This document shows positions 2,794 through 64,000 of a stretch of DNA of 64,000 nucleotides, piece after piece. Source of the stretch: Kangiella sp. HZ709 (GTDB lineage: Bacteria; Pseudomonadota; Gammaproteobacteria; Enterobacterales; Kangiellaceae); assembly GCF_009674675.1 (NCBI RefSeq), contig NZ_WKJC01000002.1, positions 310,001 through 374,000 on the forward strand, given 5' to 3'. How positions within the stretch are numbered: the stretch's first letter is position 1; every line of letters begins with the position of its first letter. Both the position numbers and the translations under genes were made by a program. Below the pieces are notes generated by a model. It was not told where the DNA came from. It saw nothing but the letters and a program-made list of their open reading frames with translations, and searched no databases.

Positions 2794-2840
2794 AATTTAT
2801 TTACAGCTTTCAATTACTTGATTCCTTTTGTGATTTTTAA

Positions 2841-2876
2841 ATTGCTCAATCCAAACTTATTCATAGGTTGAGCAAT
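2841..2876. terminator. Shared terminator between ssrA and metX-hom
   Basis: The inverted repeat TTGCTCAA (2842-2849) / TTGAGCAA (2868-2875), extended by an A-T pair, is followed by an AT-rich tail on both strands. It sits between the 3' end of ssrA (+) and the stop of the metX-hom gene (-), so it could serve both. The T-run is weaker than at other terminators here. Confidence 0.5.
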
Positions 2877-2931
2877 AAAAATTTTATAACTCCTTAGTAT
2901 AAAATTTCAAAAGTTGAAAATAGATTCCATA

Positions 2932-6430
<3,499 letters not shown>

Positions 6431-58996: not shown

Positions 58997-59137
58997 TTCA
59001 ATGGCAACTATTTGAATCTAACACTATTAAGCAATTGTTATATCTCGTTACACTTTACCATTGAGGCTTACATGATATCTTGGTAAAACGAGTGTTGGTC
59101 AATTTTAATCAACTTATTTAGTAAAGTGGGGACAACC

Positions 59138-61735
59138 ATGACAAAGAGTAAAATCAGTCAAGCGCTAGCCATTGCTCTATTTGGCGCCAGCATGACTTTT
59201 GCCATGCCAACCGCTGAGGCAGCTGCTCCAGCCAAAGGCAAGAAAGAACAGAAAAAAGAAAAATCCATCCAAGATGCCGTTAAGGATATTACAAAAATCG
59301 AAGGTTTATTCGATTTGTACCAAGATCCAAAAACTGGCGGCTTAAAAATGATCATCAAAAAAGATCAGTTAGGTAAAGAATTCCTCCACTTTGTACAAGT
59401 TAGAGACGGCTTAGTAGATGTTGGCATGTTCCGTGGCGCTTATCGCGGCACACGTATTTACTCTATCGATCGCCATTATAAAAATATTGAATTCAAAGCA
59501 GAAAATACTAGCTTTTATTTCGACCCGGAAAATGCAGTTTCAAAAGCAAAAGACGCTAATATCAACAGTCCGGTTATTACCAGTTTAAAAATTGAAGCTG
59601 AAGATAAAGAAACAGGTGATGTGTTAGTAGATGCTAGTAAATTGTTCCTATCTGAGTCATTAATGCAGATCAAACCTTCTCCGCGTCCAGGCGCACGACC
59701 TGGTCAACGTTTAGGCTTAGGTAAATTGAGCAAAAGCAAAACCAAGTTTATTGAAATTGATAACTACCCTGAAAATACCGACTTTGAAGTTGAGTACGTT
59801 TATGACAACCCAGCTCCAGTAGTCCCTGCTGCAAGAACTGTCACGCCGGGTTTATTCGCTTTAACTGATGCTCGCTCGATTGAAGTCACTATGCGCCATT
59901 CTTTGATCGAAGTACCTGACAATAGCTATCAGCCTCGTTTTGACGATCCACGTGTTGGTTATTTTATGAATCAAGTACACGATATGACTGCGGTTGGTGA
60001 TTATACGCCTTACCGTGATGTTATTCGTCGCTGGCATTTAGAGAAAAAAGATCCAACGGCAGCAATGTCTGAGCCTGTTGAGCCTATCGTATGGTGGATT
60101 GAAAACACCACTCCTGAGTACATTCGCGAAACGGTAAAAAATGCAACGCTTGAGTGGAACAAAGCTTTCGAAACGGCAGGTTTTAAAAACGCTGTACAGG
60201 TAAAAGTGCAACCTGACGATGCTGACTGGGATGCAGGGGATATCCGTTATAACGTATTACGCTGGACTTCATCGCCACGCCCTCCTTTCGGCGGTTATGG
60301 CCCAAGTTTTGCTAATCCTCGCACCGGTCAGTTATTGGGTGCGGACATCATGTTGGAATATTCAGTATTTAACCGTATTGCTTTTGCTGAAGACTTAATG
60401 GCTACCGAAGCTATGAGTATCGAGCAAGCGATGGAGCAGTCATTAGAATATAAGCACGATGTTCATCAGGCTATGTATCAAGATGCTATGGACGGCCGCA
60501 TGATGATGGAAGCAATGGCAAATAACCCAGAAGAAGTTAGCGATTTCTTGCATGACTTCATTCACTTCTTAGTATTGCATGAAGTTGGGCATACGCTTGG
60601 TTTAAACCATAATATGAAGTCTAGCCAATTACACGATTTAGCTTCAGTTAGCGACAAAGCTAAAACTGCTAGCATGGGCTTAACTGGCTCAGTGATGGAT
60701 TACCCTGCAATTAACTTCAGCACTGACGGTAAGCAAGGTCATTATTATACAACAACTCCAGGTCCTTATGATTTGTGGGCCATTGAGTTTGGTTATAAGC
60801 CATCGCTTAACGACGCAGCAGCTGAAGAAGCACGTATGAACGCGTTACTAGCTCGCTCAACTGAGCCTGAACTGGCCTTTGGTAATGATGCTGACGATAT
60901 GCGTTCTCCAGGTAAAGCGATTGACCCTCGAATCAACGTTGGTGACATGACCTCTGATGCGGTTGGCTTTGCCATTAATCAGATGGATCATATTCGCAGT
61001 GTAGAAGATAAGTTGATTGAGCGCCTAGTTAAAGATGGCCAATCATATCAAGGTTTAGTTAGTGGCTTTGGTGCTTTACAACGTCAGTATGGTGGTCATG
61101 CTAGAACTATTTCACGCTATATTGGTGGTGTTTATTTAGATCGCGGCTTTGCAGGACAAAATGGTGCGACTGAACCATTCCGACCTGTAGAAAAAGCCAA
61201 ACAAAAAGAAGCCATGGAAGCTTTATCTAAGTATGTGTTTGCTGAAGATGCCTTTGAGTTTAACAAAGATATTTTAAGTAAGTTGCAGCTTCAACGTCGA
61301 GGCTTTAACCACTTTTCGTTCACTGAAGATCCAAAGTTGCACGATATGGTATTAAATATGCAGCGCGGAATTCTAGTTCAAGTACTTCACCCGGTTGTAC
61401 AAAAGCGTATCATTGACTCTAGTATGTATGGCAATGAATACAGTTTGTCTGAAGTGATGGGCGACTTAACCAACGCAGTATTTAAAGGTGACTCTGGCGA
61501 TGTCAATTCAATGCGTCAAAACCTACAAATCGAATACTTGAAAGGTTTAGCACGAATTGCAAAAGCAGATCCAAAAGCTGGTTATAGCAATCAAAGCGTT
61601 TCATTAGCTCGTCAGCAGTTGAAAAACATCGACTCTGATACCAGTGTTGCTTTCTGGCAATCTGATGCTACAAGAGCTCATAATCAATATGTTAAAGATA
61701 TGATTAAAGCTGCTCTGGAAATGAAAAAAGTTTAG
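59138..61735 (+). CDS. Secreted zinc-dependent metalloprotease (DUF4953/DUF5117-type, metzincin-like)
   Basis: The 865-residue protein has a signal peptide (AEAAAPA region, about 28), a Lys-rich segment (KKEQKKEK), a beta-rich N-terminal domain (about 50-260) and a protease domain with HEVGHTLGLNH (H481, H485, H491: the full HExxHxxGxxH metzincin motif) and a Met-turn GSVMDYP about 30 residues later. This arrangement, with the DNSYQPRFDDPRVGYF segment, fits the DUF5117/DUF4953 zinc-protease family of marine bacteria. I chose ATG 59138 over the in-frame GTG 59126. It is monocistronic with a terminator. Confidence 0.9.
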   Translation: MTKSKISQALAIALFGASMTFAMPTAEAAAPAKGKKEQKKEKSIQDAVKDITKIEGLFDLYQDPKTGGLKMIIKKDQLGKEFLHFVQVRDGLVDVGMFRGAYRGTRIYSIDRHYKNIEFKAENTSFYFDPENAVSKAKDANINSPVITSLKIEAEDKETGDVLVDASKLFLSESLMQIKPSPRPGARPGQRLGLGKLSKSKTKFIEIDNYPENTDFEVEYVYDNPAPVVPAARTVTPGLFALTDARSIEVTMRHSLIEVPDNSYQPRFDDPRVGYFMNQVHDMTAVGDYTPYRDVIRRWHLEKKDPTAAMSEPVEPIVWWIENTTPEYIRETVKNATLEWNKAFETAGFKNAVQVKVQPDDADWDAGDIRYNVLRWTSSPRPPFGGYGPSFANPRTGQLLGADIMLEYSVFNRIAFAEDLMATEAMSIEQAMEQSLEYKHDVHQAMYQDAMDGRMMMEAMANNPEEVSDFLHDFIHFLVLHEVGHTLGLNHNMKSSQLHDLASVSDKAKTASMGLTGSVMDYPAINFSTDGKQGHYYTTTPGPYDLWAIEFGYKPSLNDAAAEEARMNALLARSTEPELAFGNDADDMRSPGKAIDPRINVGDMTSDAVGFAINQMDHIRSVEDKLIERLVKDGQSYQGLVSGFGALQRQYGGHARTISRYIGGVYLDRGFAGQNGATEPFRPVEKAKQKEAMEALSKYVFAEDAFEFNKDILSKLQLQRRGFNHFSFTEDPKLHDMVLNMQRGILVQVLHPVVQKRIIDSSMYGNEYSLSEVMGDLTNAVFKGDSGDVNSMRQNLQIEYLKGLARIAKADPKAGYSNQSVSLARQQLKNIDSDTSVAFWQSDATRAHNQYVKDMIKAALEMKKV

Positions 61736-61757: not shown

Positions 61758-61787
61758 AAAAAAACCGGCTTGATGCCGGTTTTTTTT
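61758..61787. terminator. Bidirectional terminator
   Basis: AAACCGGC (61762-61769), TTGAT, GCCGGTTT (61775-61782), flanked by A7 and T8. It ends the metalloprotease gene (+) and probably the methyltransferase unit (-). Confidence 0.92.
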
Positions 61788-61806: not shown

Positions 61807-62610
61807 TTATTTTGATTCTTGACCAAAGTCAGTAATATTTAGTCCAAATTCATCCAACGCGGTTTGATCTAACTTAAGCTCTGTTAATGGAGGGATTACC
61901 ATTGTTGAAATGGAATTCAACTCAATCTCTGGCAATCGCTCTAGCGGAAACTTTTCTATCCTTGCTTCCTGTATCGGCAAGAAAGGTGCTTCATAAATGA
62001 TCACTTCATGCTCTAGCGGATAGTATTTATTTAAAATCCTTACGGTAGCTTGTAAATTTTCTTTGCTGGTCTTAAAGGTTTTTAAGGTGTGCTCGCCAGC
62101 TAAACTAATTTGCCATAAAATTAAATGCGCACCAACGTTTGGCTGAATACCCCCAAATAAAAACTGACTGGTTTCATAGTTTTGACAACCATAAGTTCCT
62201 GGATCGATTCCAAGATCTGCATACAAGCAAGCGTCAGCAGAAACACCCGGCAACATACGAGCAGGATAACCCTCGGATTTAAGATCTTGAATAGCAAAAT
62301 GACCAACACAGGCAAAAATACCTGGGTGACCGTATAAGGCCAATACTACTTTAGCGCCCTGTTTTACCTCATTTACCACTTCAGCAGCCATCTCTCGATA
62401 AGTCTGTCTACGTGACTTACCTTCTGCGTAGAGGTATTGCAAGCTCTTGTAGTTTGGATTAACAGATTTGAGCCAATCCTCAGACATAAAGTCAGGTAAA
62501 ATCCCGTACACTTTATCTGCTGCCTGTAAATAGCTTTCTGATAATTTAGTAATTTGACCAGCTAGCGTGATACCTGTACCAACACAGGTTAAAGAACCGT
62601 TTTTATTCAT
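61807..62610 (-). CDS. Tetrapyrrole-methylase-fold SAM methyltransferase, split-borosin alpha-N-methyltransferase-like (SonM type)
   Basis: The 267-residue protein has the TP-methylase start (LTCVGTGITLAGQIT, about 8-22) and ALYGHPGIFACVGH (91-104). As I recall them, OphMA active residues Y66/R72/Y76/Y98 have counterparts here at Y61/R67/Y71/Y93 with identical spacing. Segments PGVSADACLYADLGIDPG and QFLFGG, plus LILWQISLAGEHTL, also recall SonM from Shewanella, which methylates backbone amides of a separate peptide. That makes a borosin role more likely than a cobalamin or sirohaem methylase. No precursor ORF is adjacent: only 23 bp separate it from the GGDEF gene upstream. The ribosome site is weak. 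Confidence 0.75.
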   Translation of the reverse strand: MNKNGSLTCVGTGITLAGQITKLSESYLQAADKVYGILPDFMSEDWLKSVNPNYKSLQYLYAEGKSRRQTYREMAAEVVNEVKQGAKVVLALYGHPGIFACVGHFAIQDLKSEGYPARMLPGVSADACLYADLGIDPGTYGCQNYETSQFLFGGIQPNVGAHLILWQISLAGEHTLKTFKTSKENLQATVRILNKYYPLEHEVIIYEAPFLPIQEARIEKFPLERLPEIELNSISTMVIPPLTELKLDQTALDEFGLNITDFGQESK

Positions 62611-62633
62611 TTTTTAACTTTTAATTGTATTTA

Positions 62634-64000
62634 TTAGGTGAAACTGAAAACTTGATTACGACCCATTTGTTTTGCTTTATACATCGCATCATCTGCTGAC
62701 TGCAACAGCTCTTCTAACGATGTGAGCTGAGGATAACTAGCAACCCCAAAACTTGCCGTAATGGCAAATTGCTCTTTAAACGATGAATGAGAAATACTTT
62801 TAAATGATTCCAAACATCGGCGTGCGAAAACTTCTGCATGTTCTTTAGCCGTATTGGGTAGCACCACTATAAACTCTTCTCCTCCAAGGCGTCCAAAAAT
62901 ATCCTGCTCTCTAATTTCCGCCGTAACCTTTTCCGCTACTTGCTTTAGTACCCAGTCTCCAATGGCATGCCCATATCTATCATTAATTGATTTAAAATAG
63001 TCCAAATCAAAAGCTACTAAACTGTACTTATCACTATTTCTAGTTGCAGATTCATGCAAATCCTCGGCTCGTTGCAAAACATAACGTCTTGAAAAAATCC
63101 CTGTCAAACCATCTTTCCTTGATAACTCTTGATACCTTTCTTTTTGTTTTTTAAATTTAAAAGTTAGCAATAAAATAAGGCCAATTAAAAAGGCTGCACC
63201 TACTGAAAATAATTGATAAAGCTGTTTAGACTTTTTCTCAACCTCAGAATTTAACTTTAGTAATTGATTTTCTTGATCTAAAATTTTAACTTGAACTTCA
63301 TTTTCTAACTGTGAATGTTTAACCTGCTGATAGGCAAGATTTCGACTTGCCAAGTCTTTTTGTATCGCTTGATTCTGTTTATAAGCCTGCTCATATAGCT
63401 TAATGGCATTAGATTCATTACCTTGATTGCTGGAAACTTGTGCTTGTAAATATAAAGCTTGTTGTCTGATCGCAGACAAAGGTAGCTCTTGGGTTTTCTT
63501 GATTATGTCCTTCAGCTTAATACTACTTAAATCAAACGCTCTATTTTCAAAATCAATTTTAGCCAAATAAAGTAATACATCGACTTCTTCGGGTAAATAC
63601 GGAGTTTGCTCAAGAAAGTTATTTGCCAACTCTAGATTCAGCTTTGCTTCTCGATATTTTTTCTTATAGAGCAAATTTTTGCCTAAAGTTTTGTGTAAAT
63701 TCGCCAATACTAGATTAGCACCAATGTCTTTGCAGTAGTCCAAATCAGCGTAGATATCTTGTGTAAGGTCTACCTCATTATTTTGATTCCAAAGAATGGA
63801 GCTCTTTTGCGCTTTTGCGTAACACTGATCTTTTTGATCTTCTTTATCGTTAGCAATTTTCATTGCTAACTCTGAATATTTAAAAGCCTCTGGCCACGCT
63901 TTTATATTTTGAAAAAGATTAGCCGCACTATGATAGAAATTAAAACTAGTTTCTATATTCGGATTATCTTCAAGTATAGCAATAGCGCTATAGAGATATT
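62634..64000 (-). CDS. TPR-repeat, single-helix diguanylate cyclase (GGDEF), N-terminus outside the window
   Basis: The frame stays open to the window edge, so the N-terminus is outside. The visible part has TPR-like helical pairs (for example AFKYSELAMKIAND, REAKLNLELANNF, NAIKLYEQAYKQNQ), a coiled coil, one transmembrane helix (FSVGAAFLIGLILLLTF) and a C-terminal GGDEF domain with active-site GGEEF. An inhibitory RxxD site (REQD) sits five residues before GGEEF. It would make cyclic di-GMP with product feedback. The methyltransferase gene follows 23 bp downstream, so they probably share an mRNA. Confidence 0.9.
   Translation of the reverse strand, partial: YLYSAIAILEDNPNIETSFNFYHSAANLFQNIKAWPEAFKYSELAMKIANDKEDQKDQCYAKAQKSSILWNQNNEVDLTQDIYADLDYCKDIGANLVLANLHKTLGKNLLYKKKYREAKLNLELANNFLEQTPYLPEEVDVLLYLAKIDFENRAFDLSSIKLKDIIKKTQELPLSAIRQQALYLQAQVSSNQGNESNAIKLYEQAYKQNQAIQKDLASRNLAYQQVKHSQLENEVQVKILDQENQLLKLNSEVEKKSKQLYQLFSVGAAFLIGLILLLTFKFKKQKERYQELSRKDGLTGIFSRRYVLQRAEDLHESATRNSDKYSLVAFDLDYFKSINDRYGHAIGDWVLKQVAEKVTAEIREQDIFGRLGGEEFIVVLPNTAKEHAEVFARRCLESFKSISHSSFKEQFAITASFGVASYPQLTSLEELLQSADDAMYKAKQMGRNQVFSFT

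Follow-up and report, generated by a model that had tools for sequence, protein, structure and literature searches.

Does a methyltransferase of the split borosin kind really stand alone in this Kangiella genome, or is there a peptide for it to act on? The question is raised by the minus-strand gene at 61807..62610 of the window, by which we mean the whole 64,000-nucleotide stretch that we analyzed (G000:C4:310001-374000 of the host genome). A preliminary description had proposed that the product is an orphan split-borosin-type alpha-N-methyltransferase without an adjacent precursor, and that its gene lies between a 23-bp gap to a GGDEF gene and a terminator. The reading frame is real: it starts with ATG and encodes 267 amino acids. 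Both flanks are there as well. The gap occupies 62611..62633 (the stop codon of the GGDEF gene ends at 62634), and a hairpin resembling an intrinsic terminator, flanked by A and T runs, lies at 61758..61786. The hairpin separates the methyltransferase gene from a convergent gene for a large metalloprotease-like protein (59126-61735, plus strand), which has a HEVGHTLGLNHN motif by eye and a weak match to a serralysin model.

When we searched the PDB with phmmer, the methyltransferase matched SonM first (7ltc_A; E = 1.4e-87, 296 bits), followed by the fused borosins dbOphM (5.9e-49), OphMA (from 1.5e-48), and MroMA (from 7e-38). Everything listed below them is an antibody chain, at E = 0.19 or worse. 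The preliminary description had named SonM and OphMA as the proteins to search against, and its identification of the enzyme is borne out. The OphMA-type borosins share a homologous methyltransferase domain and the same Y/R/Y/Y spacing (we take the catalytic set of OphMA to be Y66/R72/Y76/Y98), but the precursor that we describe below is a separate gene. The corresponding set in the window's enzyme is Y61/R67/Y71/Y93. These residues are invariant across 13 aligned enzymes, the window's among them, and they align onto Y58/R67/Y71/Y93 of SonM, which according to the text of PMC8429565 are the residues that Miller et al. mutated. All 20 genomes of the genus carry at least one match to the enzyme, and the closest named contigs among the matches listed are from Kangiella.

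A different placement, with TP-methylases of the cobalamin or sirohaem type or with YabN-like proteins, had been flagged from the start as the one to check. The enzyme does match TP_methylase in Pfam (E = 2.1e-17), and it has weak matches to models of CobA, CobI, and YabN. But none of its 12 NCBIfam matches (cobalamin enzymes, sirohaem enzymes, and YabN) comes anywhere near the cut-off; the best scores of this type are 45.8 of 525 bits for YabN and 24.8 of 163.25 bits for CobI. Set against 296 bits for SonM, the catalytic residues, and a co-encoded precursor with a borosin-binding domain, they make this placement extremely improbable. We have a discrete enzyme homologous to SonM, the catalytic set, and a separate precursor with a borosin-binding domain, which are the marks of a type IV split borosin. 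Judging from sequence, the methyltransferase is almost certainly a member of that family.

The methyltransferase seemed to be an orphan because the end of the window cuts the GGDEF gene and the precursor lies beyond it. The precursor gene is wholly outside the window, on the same (minus) strand, 373–591 bp past its end (window-equivalent 64373-64591; G000:C4:374373-374591), with one gene between it and the methyltransferase. It encodes 72 amino acids, or 76 if an earlier ATG is used; a GGAG lies shortly ahead of the start of the 72-aa version. The product resembles SonA (8t1s_B, E = 1.5e-11; 7ltc_B, 3.6e-11) and consists of a borosin-binding domain and a C-terminal core. It also matches LigA in Pfam, below the cut-off, and the SonA chains were deposited under the name LigA. 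Its L61 and I63 align with L63 and I65 of SonA, the two residues of SonA that are methylated (according to the text of PMC8429565). Since the sequence past the end of the window holds a SonA-like precursor, we rejected the orphan hypothesis. More generally, if an enzyme near the end of a contig or a window looks like an “orphan,” the sequence past that end is the first place to look.

The precursor is the first gene of what is apparently one operon. The gene for the receptor cyclase, as we will call the GGDEF protein, starts 8 bp behind it on the same strand (window-equivalent 64364), and the methyltransferase gene comes last, after the 23-bp gap. This order of precursor (A), receptor cyclase (G), and methyltransferase (M) is kept in 9/9 orthologous Kangiella loci (own included, at least 70% identical), which were drawn from the 20 genomes of the genus; 7–11 bp separate A from G and 6–28 bp separate G from M. 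In the Shewanella loci that we compare below, in contrast, the order is M-A-G. Among the 110 methyltransferases of a phylogenetic tree, the window's family contributes nine different A-G-M rows, which group in a single supported clade (100/100); the tree has 11 A-G-M rows in all and 53 plain M-A-G rows. From this tree, which is midpoint-rooted and has some long branches, the methyltransferase seems to have changed place in the window's lineage. The enzyme adds a new member to the type IV split borosins, and its gene order is unusual.

Could the methyltransferase still have some other substrate, or serve the genome's other precursor in trans? The genome does contain a second locus, with an 88-aa precursor of its own. 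However, the SonA-like precursor is the second gene upstream of the methyltransferase in 9/9 orthologous loci, and the second locus comes with a methyltransferase of its own. The preliminary description had suggested a scan of the whole genome for precursors; our SonA-like precursor profile, which does not detect the 88-aa precursor, found a single place, in the enzyme's own operon. Trans use of the second precursor is unlikely because the operon has its own, and we consider any form of true orphan very unlikely.

The second split borosin locus (L002 1184-2238; G000:C3, about 1.2924–1.2934 Mb; L047 6371-7425) encodes a 252-aa methyltransferase, the 88-aa precursor, which has an acidic tail, and then a 574-aa TPR-GGDEF protein. 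A phmmer search of the PDB with the 88-aa precursor found nothing relevant, and it was recognized solely by an iterated profile and by its position. About 630–1910 bp upstream of the methyltransferase in L047 is a gene that by eye resembles leucyl aminopeptidase. Other Kangiella genomes have it ahead of comparable loci too, which could be either chance synteny or a sign of a peptide-trimming enzyme. Elsewhere on the same contig (L149 1435-2529; G000:C3, about 1.7028 Mb) is an exported-looking, TPR-only protein of 364 amino acids, with MutH-like and RppH-like genes (by eye) as neighbors. This 4-kb locus contains neither a methyltransferase nor a precursor. Since relatives (L066) have a methyltransferase and a precursor beside similar genes, it may be what remains of a third borosin locus that was lost.

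What is the protein encoded between the precursor and the methyltransferase? It has 576 amino acids, and its last 454 codons and stop codon lie in the window (62634..64000, minus strand). It has a signal-peptide-like start, a TPR region, one transmembrane-like stretch, a GGEEF domain, and an RxxD I-site. A GGDEF domain with the GG[DE]EF motif and an I-site is what the sequence of a diguanylate cyclase should have, and the intact GGEEF and I-site predict that the protein makes c-di-GMP. We compared 90 precursor-linked cyclases from L033–L146 (near-duplicates of genus loci included) by hydropathy and motifs only. All 90 have a transmembrane-like stretch before the GGDEF domain, 79 have an N-terminal hydrophobic stretch, 86 have GG[DE]EF, and 80 have the I-site. 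Lysine and arginine are commoner after the transmembrane stretch than before it in 79/90. This bias and the hydropathy predict that the TPR region is periplasmic and that the cyclase faces the cytoplasm. The TPR region contains two cysteines that never vary among 30 aligned cyclases and 6 exported TPR proteins; by eye, the pair is absent from the kinase receptor of L154. An AlphaFold2 model of the orthologous cyclase from L067 (mean pLDDT 89.4) has a long helix (317–416) that joins the TPR region to the GGDEF domain.

The host genome has 14 GGDEF matches in 2.41 Mb. A single-sequence search of this genome with the TPR part of the window's cyclase found itself and one 21% match; relatives of the TPR region needed a profile search. 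As a control we used L150, a TPR-cyclase from the same genome without a borosin link. Just 105 bp separate it from the listed upstream gene, which leaves no room for a precursor.

The described system that is closest to the window's is SonM-SonA from Shewanella oneidensis, a type IV split borosin (PMC8429565, as far as its text was available). It has the same enzyme family and catalytic residues, and a precursor with a borosin-binding domain and two hydrophobic positions that match the methylated ones. The window's enzyme is 46–54% identical to the Shewanella enzymes among the best 80 of at least 586 places. We found a precursor and a GGDEF match after the methyltransferase in 37 of the 39 named Shewanella and Parashewanella loci listed, including Shewanella sp. 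ANA-3 (L085); S. oneidensis MR-1 is left out of this count. The other two (L110 and L114) are cut by contig ends, and a TPR protein begins there. In two of the 37 (L086 and L091), the cyclase is split over two frames.

In the available main text of PMC8429565 (supplement aside), neither “GGDEF” nor “diguanylate” occurs, and at this first description no split borosin had a known final product. GGDEF is named in the Fig. 1 legend of a scheme of borosin architectures (PMC11395268), and sections 3, 4, 9, and 28 of that paper give it no role. The phrase “histidine kinase” in another borosin paper (PMC9505594, in the part available) turned out to concern another system. In the literature that we searched, no paper had borosin together with tetratricopeptide or di-GMP. 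As far as our searches go, the pairing of a precursor with a TPR receptor of exchangeable output is undiscussed in print; an earlier notice is possible in supplements or in the papers on borosin types V–X, which were reportedly defined by Imani et al. in 2022 and Cho et al. in 2022. The suggestion that this might be an undescribed system therefore holds only in an unforeseen way: the enzyme is of the described type IV, and the recurrent pairing of precursor and receptor is the part that we have not seen discussed.

To see how regular this pairing is, we surveyed the best 80 of at least 586 confirmed methyltransferase places, all in named genomes. Because of the kinship among these loci, the counts that follow, all for the best 80 of at least 586, are not independent events. 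In 77/80 loci, the methyltransferase has a precursor within 4 kb. A GGDEF gene on the same strand is within 4 kb in 72/80, or in 67 of the 70 loci with at least 4 kb on both flanks, and it is directly after the precursor in 69/80. Farther than 4.5 kb from the methyltransferase, the survey loci hold 7 GGDEF genes in 355 kb. The full-flank loci without a GGDEF gene (L131, L132, and L140) are from Kangiellaceae and have exported TPR-only proteins instead. A match to a TPR profile is nearby in 78/80. This profile was trained on the TPR regions of 90 cyclases from L033–L146, so a match is in part built in for the GGDEF cases; L154–L171 and L190–L202 are outside the training set. In one of the two loci without a match (L141), the sequence ends at the methyltransferase. 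In the other (L072), 1.4 kb is left, and L072 belongs to a Kangiella family whose longer members (L042, L044, and L045) carry the receptor solely behind a second precursor.

These longer members have the layout M-A-m-A-G (L042 5682-9112, and likewise L044 and L045), with two methyltransferases and two different precursors per locus. The core of the first precursor ends in LLLLTPEA or LLLLTPDA, and there is no receptor directly behind it. Also, a GNAT acetyltransferase-like gene adjoins the methyltransferase in several loci, all of them from outside Shewanella: L106 (7740-8348), L113 (7798-8304), L120 (7801-8322), L124 (7789-8304), L144 (7782-8384), and the Kangiella loci L042, L044, L045, L048, and L050. 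It was identified by Pfam in L144 (Acetyltransf_3) and by eye in the others. It is possibly a second tailoring enzyme.

We then asked what lies directly downstream of each precursor (on the same strand, at −260 to +300 bp) in 100 loci: the 80 named loci (best 80 of at least 586), 18 fetched regions, which we describe below, and the host's own two loci. Among 102 precursors recognized at E = 0.05, a TPR-profile protein is directly downstream of 95, a methyltransferase of 5, and neither of 2; these two are in L072 and in L145, where a first precursor is followed by a second. The genus loci (L033–L066) were counted separately and have 38 precursors, followed by a TPR protein in 25 cases, a methyltransferase in 9, and neither in 4 (the family of L042–L045). 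Methyltransferases aside, genes of at least 250 codons directly after a precursor match the TPR profile in 91/91 cases, 72 of them with GGDEF, while the other genes of this size in the same 100 loci match it in 19/444 cases (Fisher p = 2e-84, kinship ignored). Of these 19, 8 are further receptors in tandem, 6 are TPR-only proteins after A-M, and for 5 (L116, L137, L164, L165, and L166) the precursor was missed or is off the contig.

The reverse search gives a similar picture. In 61 genomes, all 52 TPR-profile hits of at least 120 bits are within 6 kb of a methyltransferase, as are 20/25 hits at 95–120 bits and 2/21 weaker hits. The profile favors borosin-linked proteins because it was built from such proteins.

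In these 61 relatives, 20 of 78 methyltransferase matches (two short fragment rows left out) lack a TPR-profile match that scores 75 bits or more and lies no farther than 6 kb away. The 18 fetched regions cover 19 of these 20. The twentieth (L043, on a 5.9-kb contig) has a precursor and no TPR gene. In 17/18 fetched regions a TPR-profile protein follows the precursor; in L163 the contig breaks off after 130 codons of an exported-looking protein. With a threshold of E = 0.5, the precursor profile detects a precursor in 17/18 regions. Many of the receptors in these regions have a kinase in place of the cyclase. Pfam identifies TPR and HATPase_c in 6/6 kinase-like receptors (L154, L155 twice, L160, L162, and L164) and HisKA in 5/6; the receptor of L162 also has receiver domains, and that of L169 has TPR only. 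By eye, there is an SHELRTP motif in the kinase-like proteins of L157, L158, L159, L161, L165, L166, L167, and L170, and the TPR proteins of L156, L168, L169, and L171 have a hydrophobic C-terminal end. Across all of the kinase receptors that we scanned with Pfam, HATPase_c is found in 8/8 and HisKA in 7/8. Thus, the outputs behind the TPR region are a diguanylate cyclase, a histidine kinase, a hybrid kinase, or none (an anchored or exported TPR protein). In the genus loci, such output-less TPR proteins occur one to four per locus where they replace the cyclase.

We also made an even draw of 398 Pseudomonadota genomes, of which 15 had methyltransferase matches with E no higher than 1e-40, 18 in total. 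Five of these matches are in genomes already covered (G000 twice, G041, G050, and G051), which leaves 13 new loci. A TPR protein is present in 12/13, ten of them with GGDEF; two others (L200 and L201) have kinase and receiver domains, and L201 has Hpt too. The precursor profile recognizes a precursor in 8/13. In L194, L195, L196, and L199, a short reading frame of the right kind (by eye), below the threshold, lies before the receptor; in L196, it and the cyclase are divergent from the methyltransferase. The last locus, L202, encodes a protein of 1174 amino acids that is 33% identical to the window's (2840-6364, minus strand; TP-methylase domain at residues 70–211 by Pfam), with neither a recognized precursor nor a TPR partner nearby. 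It is possibly another borosin-like type.

The exported or anchored TPR proteins without an output, which replace the cyclase in some loci, suggest another role for the TPR protein: it could be a partner in maturation or transport (a chaperone, a docking platform, or an immunity protein), with the GGDEF or kinase output being secondary. But intact outputs dominate, both among the cyclases (GG[DE]EF in 86/90, I-site in 80/90) and among the kinases (HATPase_c in 8/8, HisKA in 7/8), and we regard this role as quite improbable.

Some loci speak to whether the TPR protein belongs with the precursor or with the enzyme. L106 and L123 have the layout M-A-G-A-G and L155 has A-T-M-A-T, so that each receptor has its own precursor and there is just one enzyme. 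In L078, L087, L088, L117, L118, L134, and L138, two or three cyclases are behind one precursor, which suits a receptor model less well.

We also tested whether the core and the TPR region vary together. In 44 SonA-like loci, with the GGDEF-domain and methyltransferase distances held constant, the correlation of core with TPR distances is 0.56, and it is 0.41 if the leader is also held constant. In the same unranked test, core correlates with methyltransferase at −0.26 and with GGDEF at 0.22. In rank-based tests, core with TPR gives 0.33 in these 44 loci and 0.48 in 35 Shewanella and Parashewanella loci (permutation p = 0.002 each, which is the floor of 499 permutations), and core with methyltransferase gives −0.14 and −0.05. 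The Mantel-type permutations leave kinship in. In the acidic-tail class (28 loci), core with TPR is not significant (0.08, p = 0.17), and core with GGDEF is 0.22 (p = 0.03). So, in the SonA-like class the core distances track the TPR region rather than the methyltransferase; the acidic-tail class does not show this. Because the precursor and the TPR region are neighbors, they may instead have been transferred together as a cassette. The rank-based correlation of leader with TPR is higher than that of core with TPR (0.60 in the 44 SonA-like loci and 0.70 in the 35), and core with GGDEF is positive, so a co-inherited cassette could explain part of the signal.

These results bear on another way to read the operon, namely as a type IV split borosin that makes a secreted bioactive peptide, such as a toxin or a metallophore, with the TPR cyclase or kinase being a mere regulator, which adjusts production or responds to the environment without binding the peptide. 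Biosynthetic gene clusters often include regulator genes, the conserved layout suits co-regulation equally well, and a bacterial borosin natural product has reportedly been described (Crone et al. 2023, known to us by title). However, mere regulation would not require a place beside the precursor rather than the enzyme. Also, the TPR half is constant while the output domain varies, each precursor has its own receptor in L106, L123, and L155, and core distances in the SonA-like loci track the TPR region instead of the methyltransferase. We consider the secreted bioactive peptide rather unlikely.

Is the TPR region of a kind that binds peptides? A Foldseek search with the whole cyclase gave GGDEF-containing structures among the 50 matches listed, so we modeled the exported TPR protein of L131 instead (pLDDT 91.3). 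Its best matches among the 50 listed are TPR-peptide complexes of LGN (E from 5.5e-10), and the next are the pheromone receptors Rap (from 8.4e-8) and NprR (1.3e-5). TM scores to TPR-peptide folds are about 0.5–0.7, and a match of TPR folds is generic, so all that the model shows is a predicted solenoid of the type that binds peptides.

The likeness to Rap and NprR, of the RRNPP family, is in the TPR solenoid, which has a similar shape (TM about 0.6, for a generic fold). In those systems, too, a peptide gene is beside the receptor gene. Rap and NprR are cytoplasmic receptors of Gram-positive bacteria, whereas the window's TPR region is predicted to be periplasmic, with a separate cytoplasmic output, and its peptide is a borosin precursor. 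Because hydropathy predicts a TPR region outside the cytoplasm, we do not class the TPR cyclases as members of RRNPP.

Precursor genes are mostly directly before the gene of a membrane sensor, so borosin peptides may be signals. For the window's A-G-M operon, we think it fairly probable, from sequence comparisons, that the methylated core is the ligand of the TPR receptor and switches its c-di-GMP output. In this scheme, the SonM-type enzyme would bind the N-terminal borosin-binding domain of the 72-aa precursor in the cytoplasm and would methylate amides in the backbone of the C-terminal core, L61 and I63 being the likeliest sites by analogy with SonA. The core would then be released from the precursor, would reach the periplasm or the outside, and would bind the periplasmic TPR solenoid of its cognate membrane protein; the bound TPR region would switch the cytoplasmic GGDEF domain and hence c-di-GMP. 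The three genes of the operon include no exporter or transporter and no (leader) peptidase. Backbone N-methylation is said to favor membrane permeability (in the text of PMC8429565), so passive exit of the N-methylated core is conceivable, although this is a guess.

Whether the same holds for split borosins more broadly we would put at an even chance: they may be a form of RiPP signaling in Proteobacteria, with dedicated ligands for periplasmic TPR receptors whose outputs are swapped, and N-methylation may help the peptides to cross the membrane without an exporter. If this is true, it would tie the biosynthesis of RiPPs to signaling by c-di-GMP and by two-component systems, and the paired receptors would give genome mining a handle on which core suits which sensor. 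The pairing of precursor and TPR protein turns the function of the class into a question of whether the methylated core binds the TPR region and alters c-di-GMP or phosphorylation.
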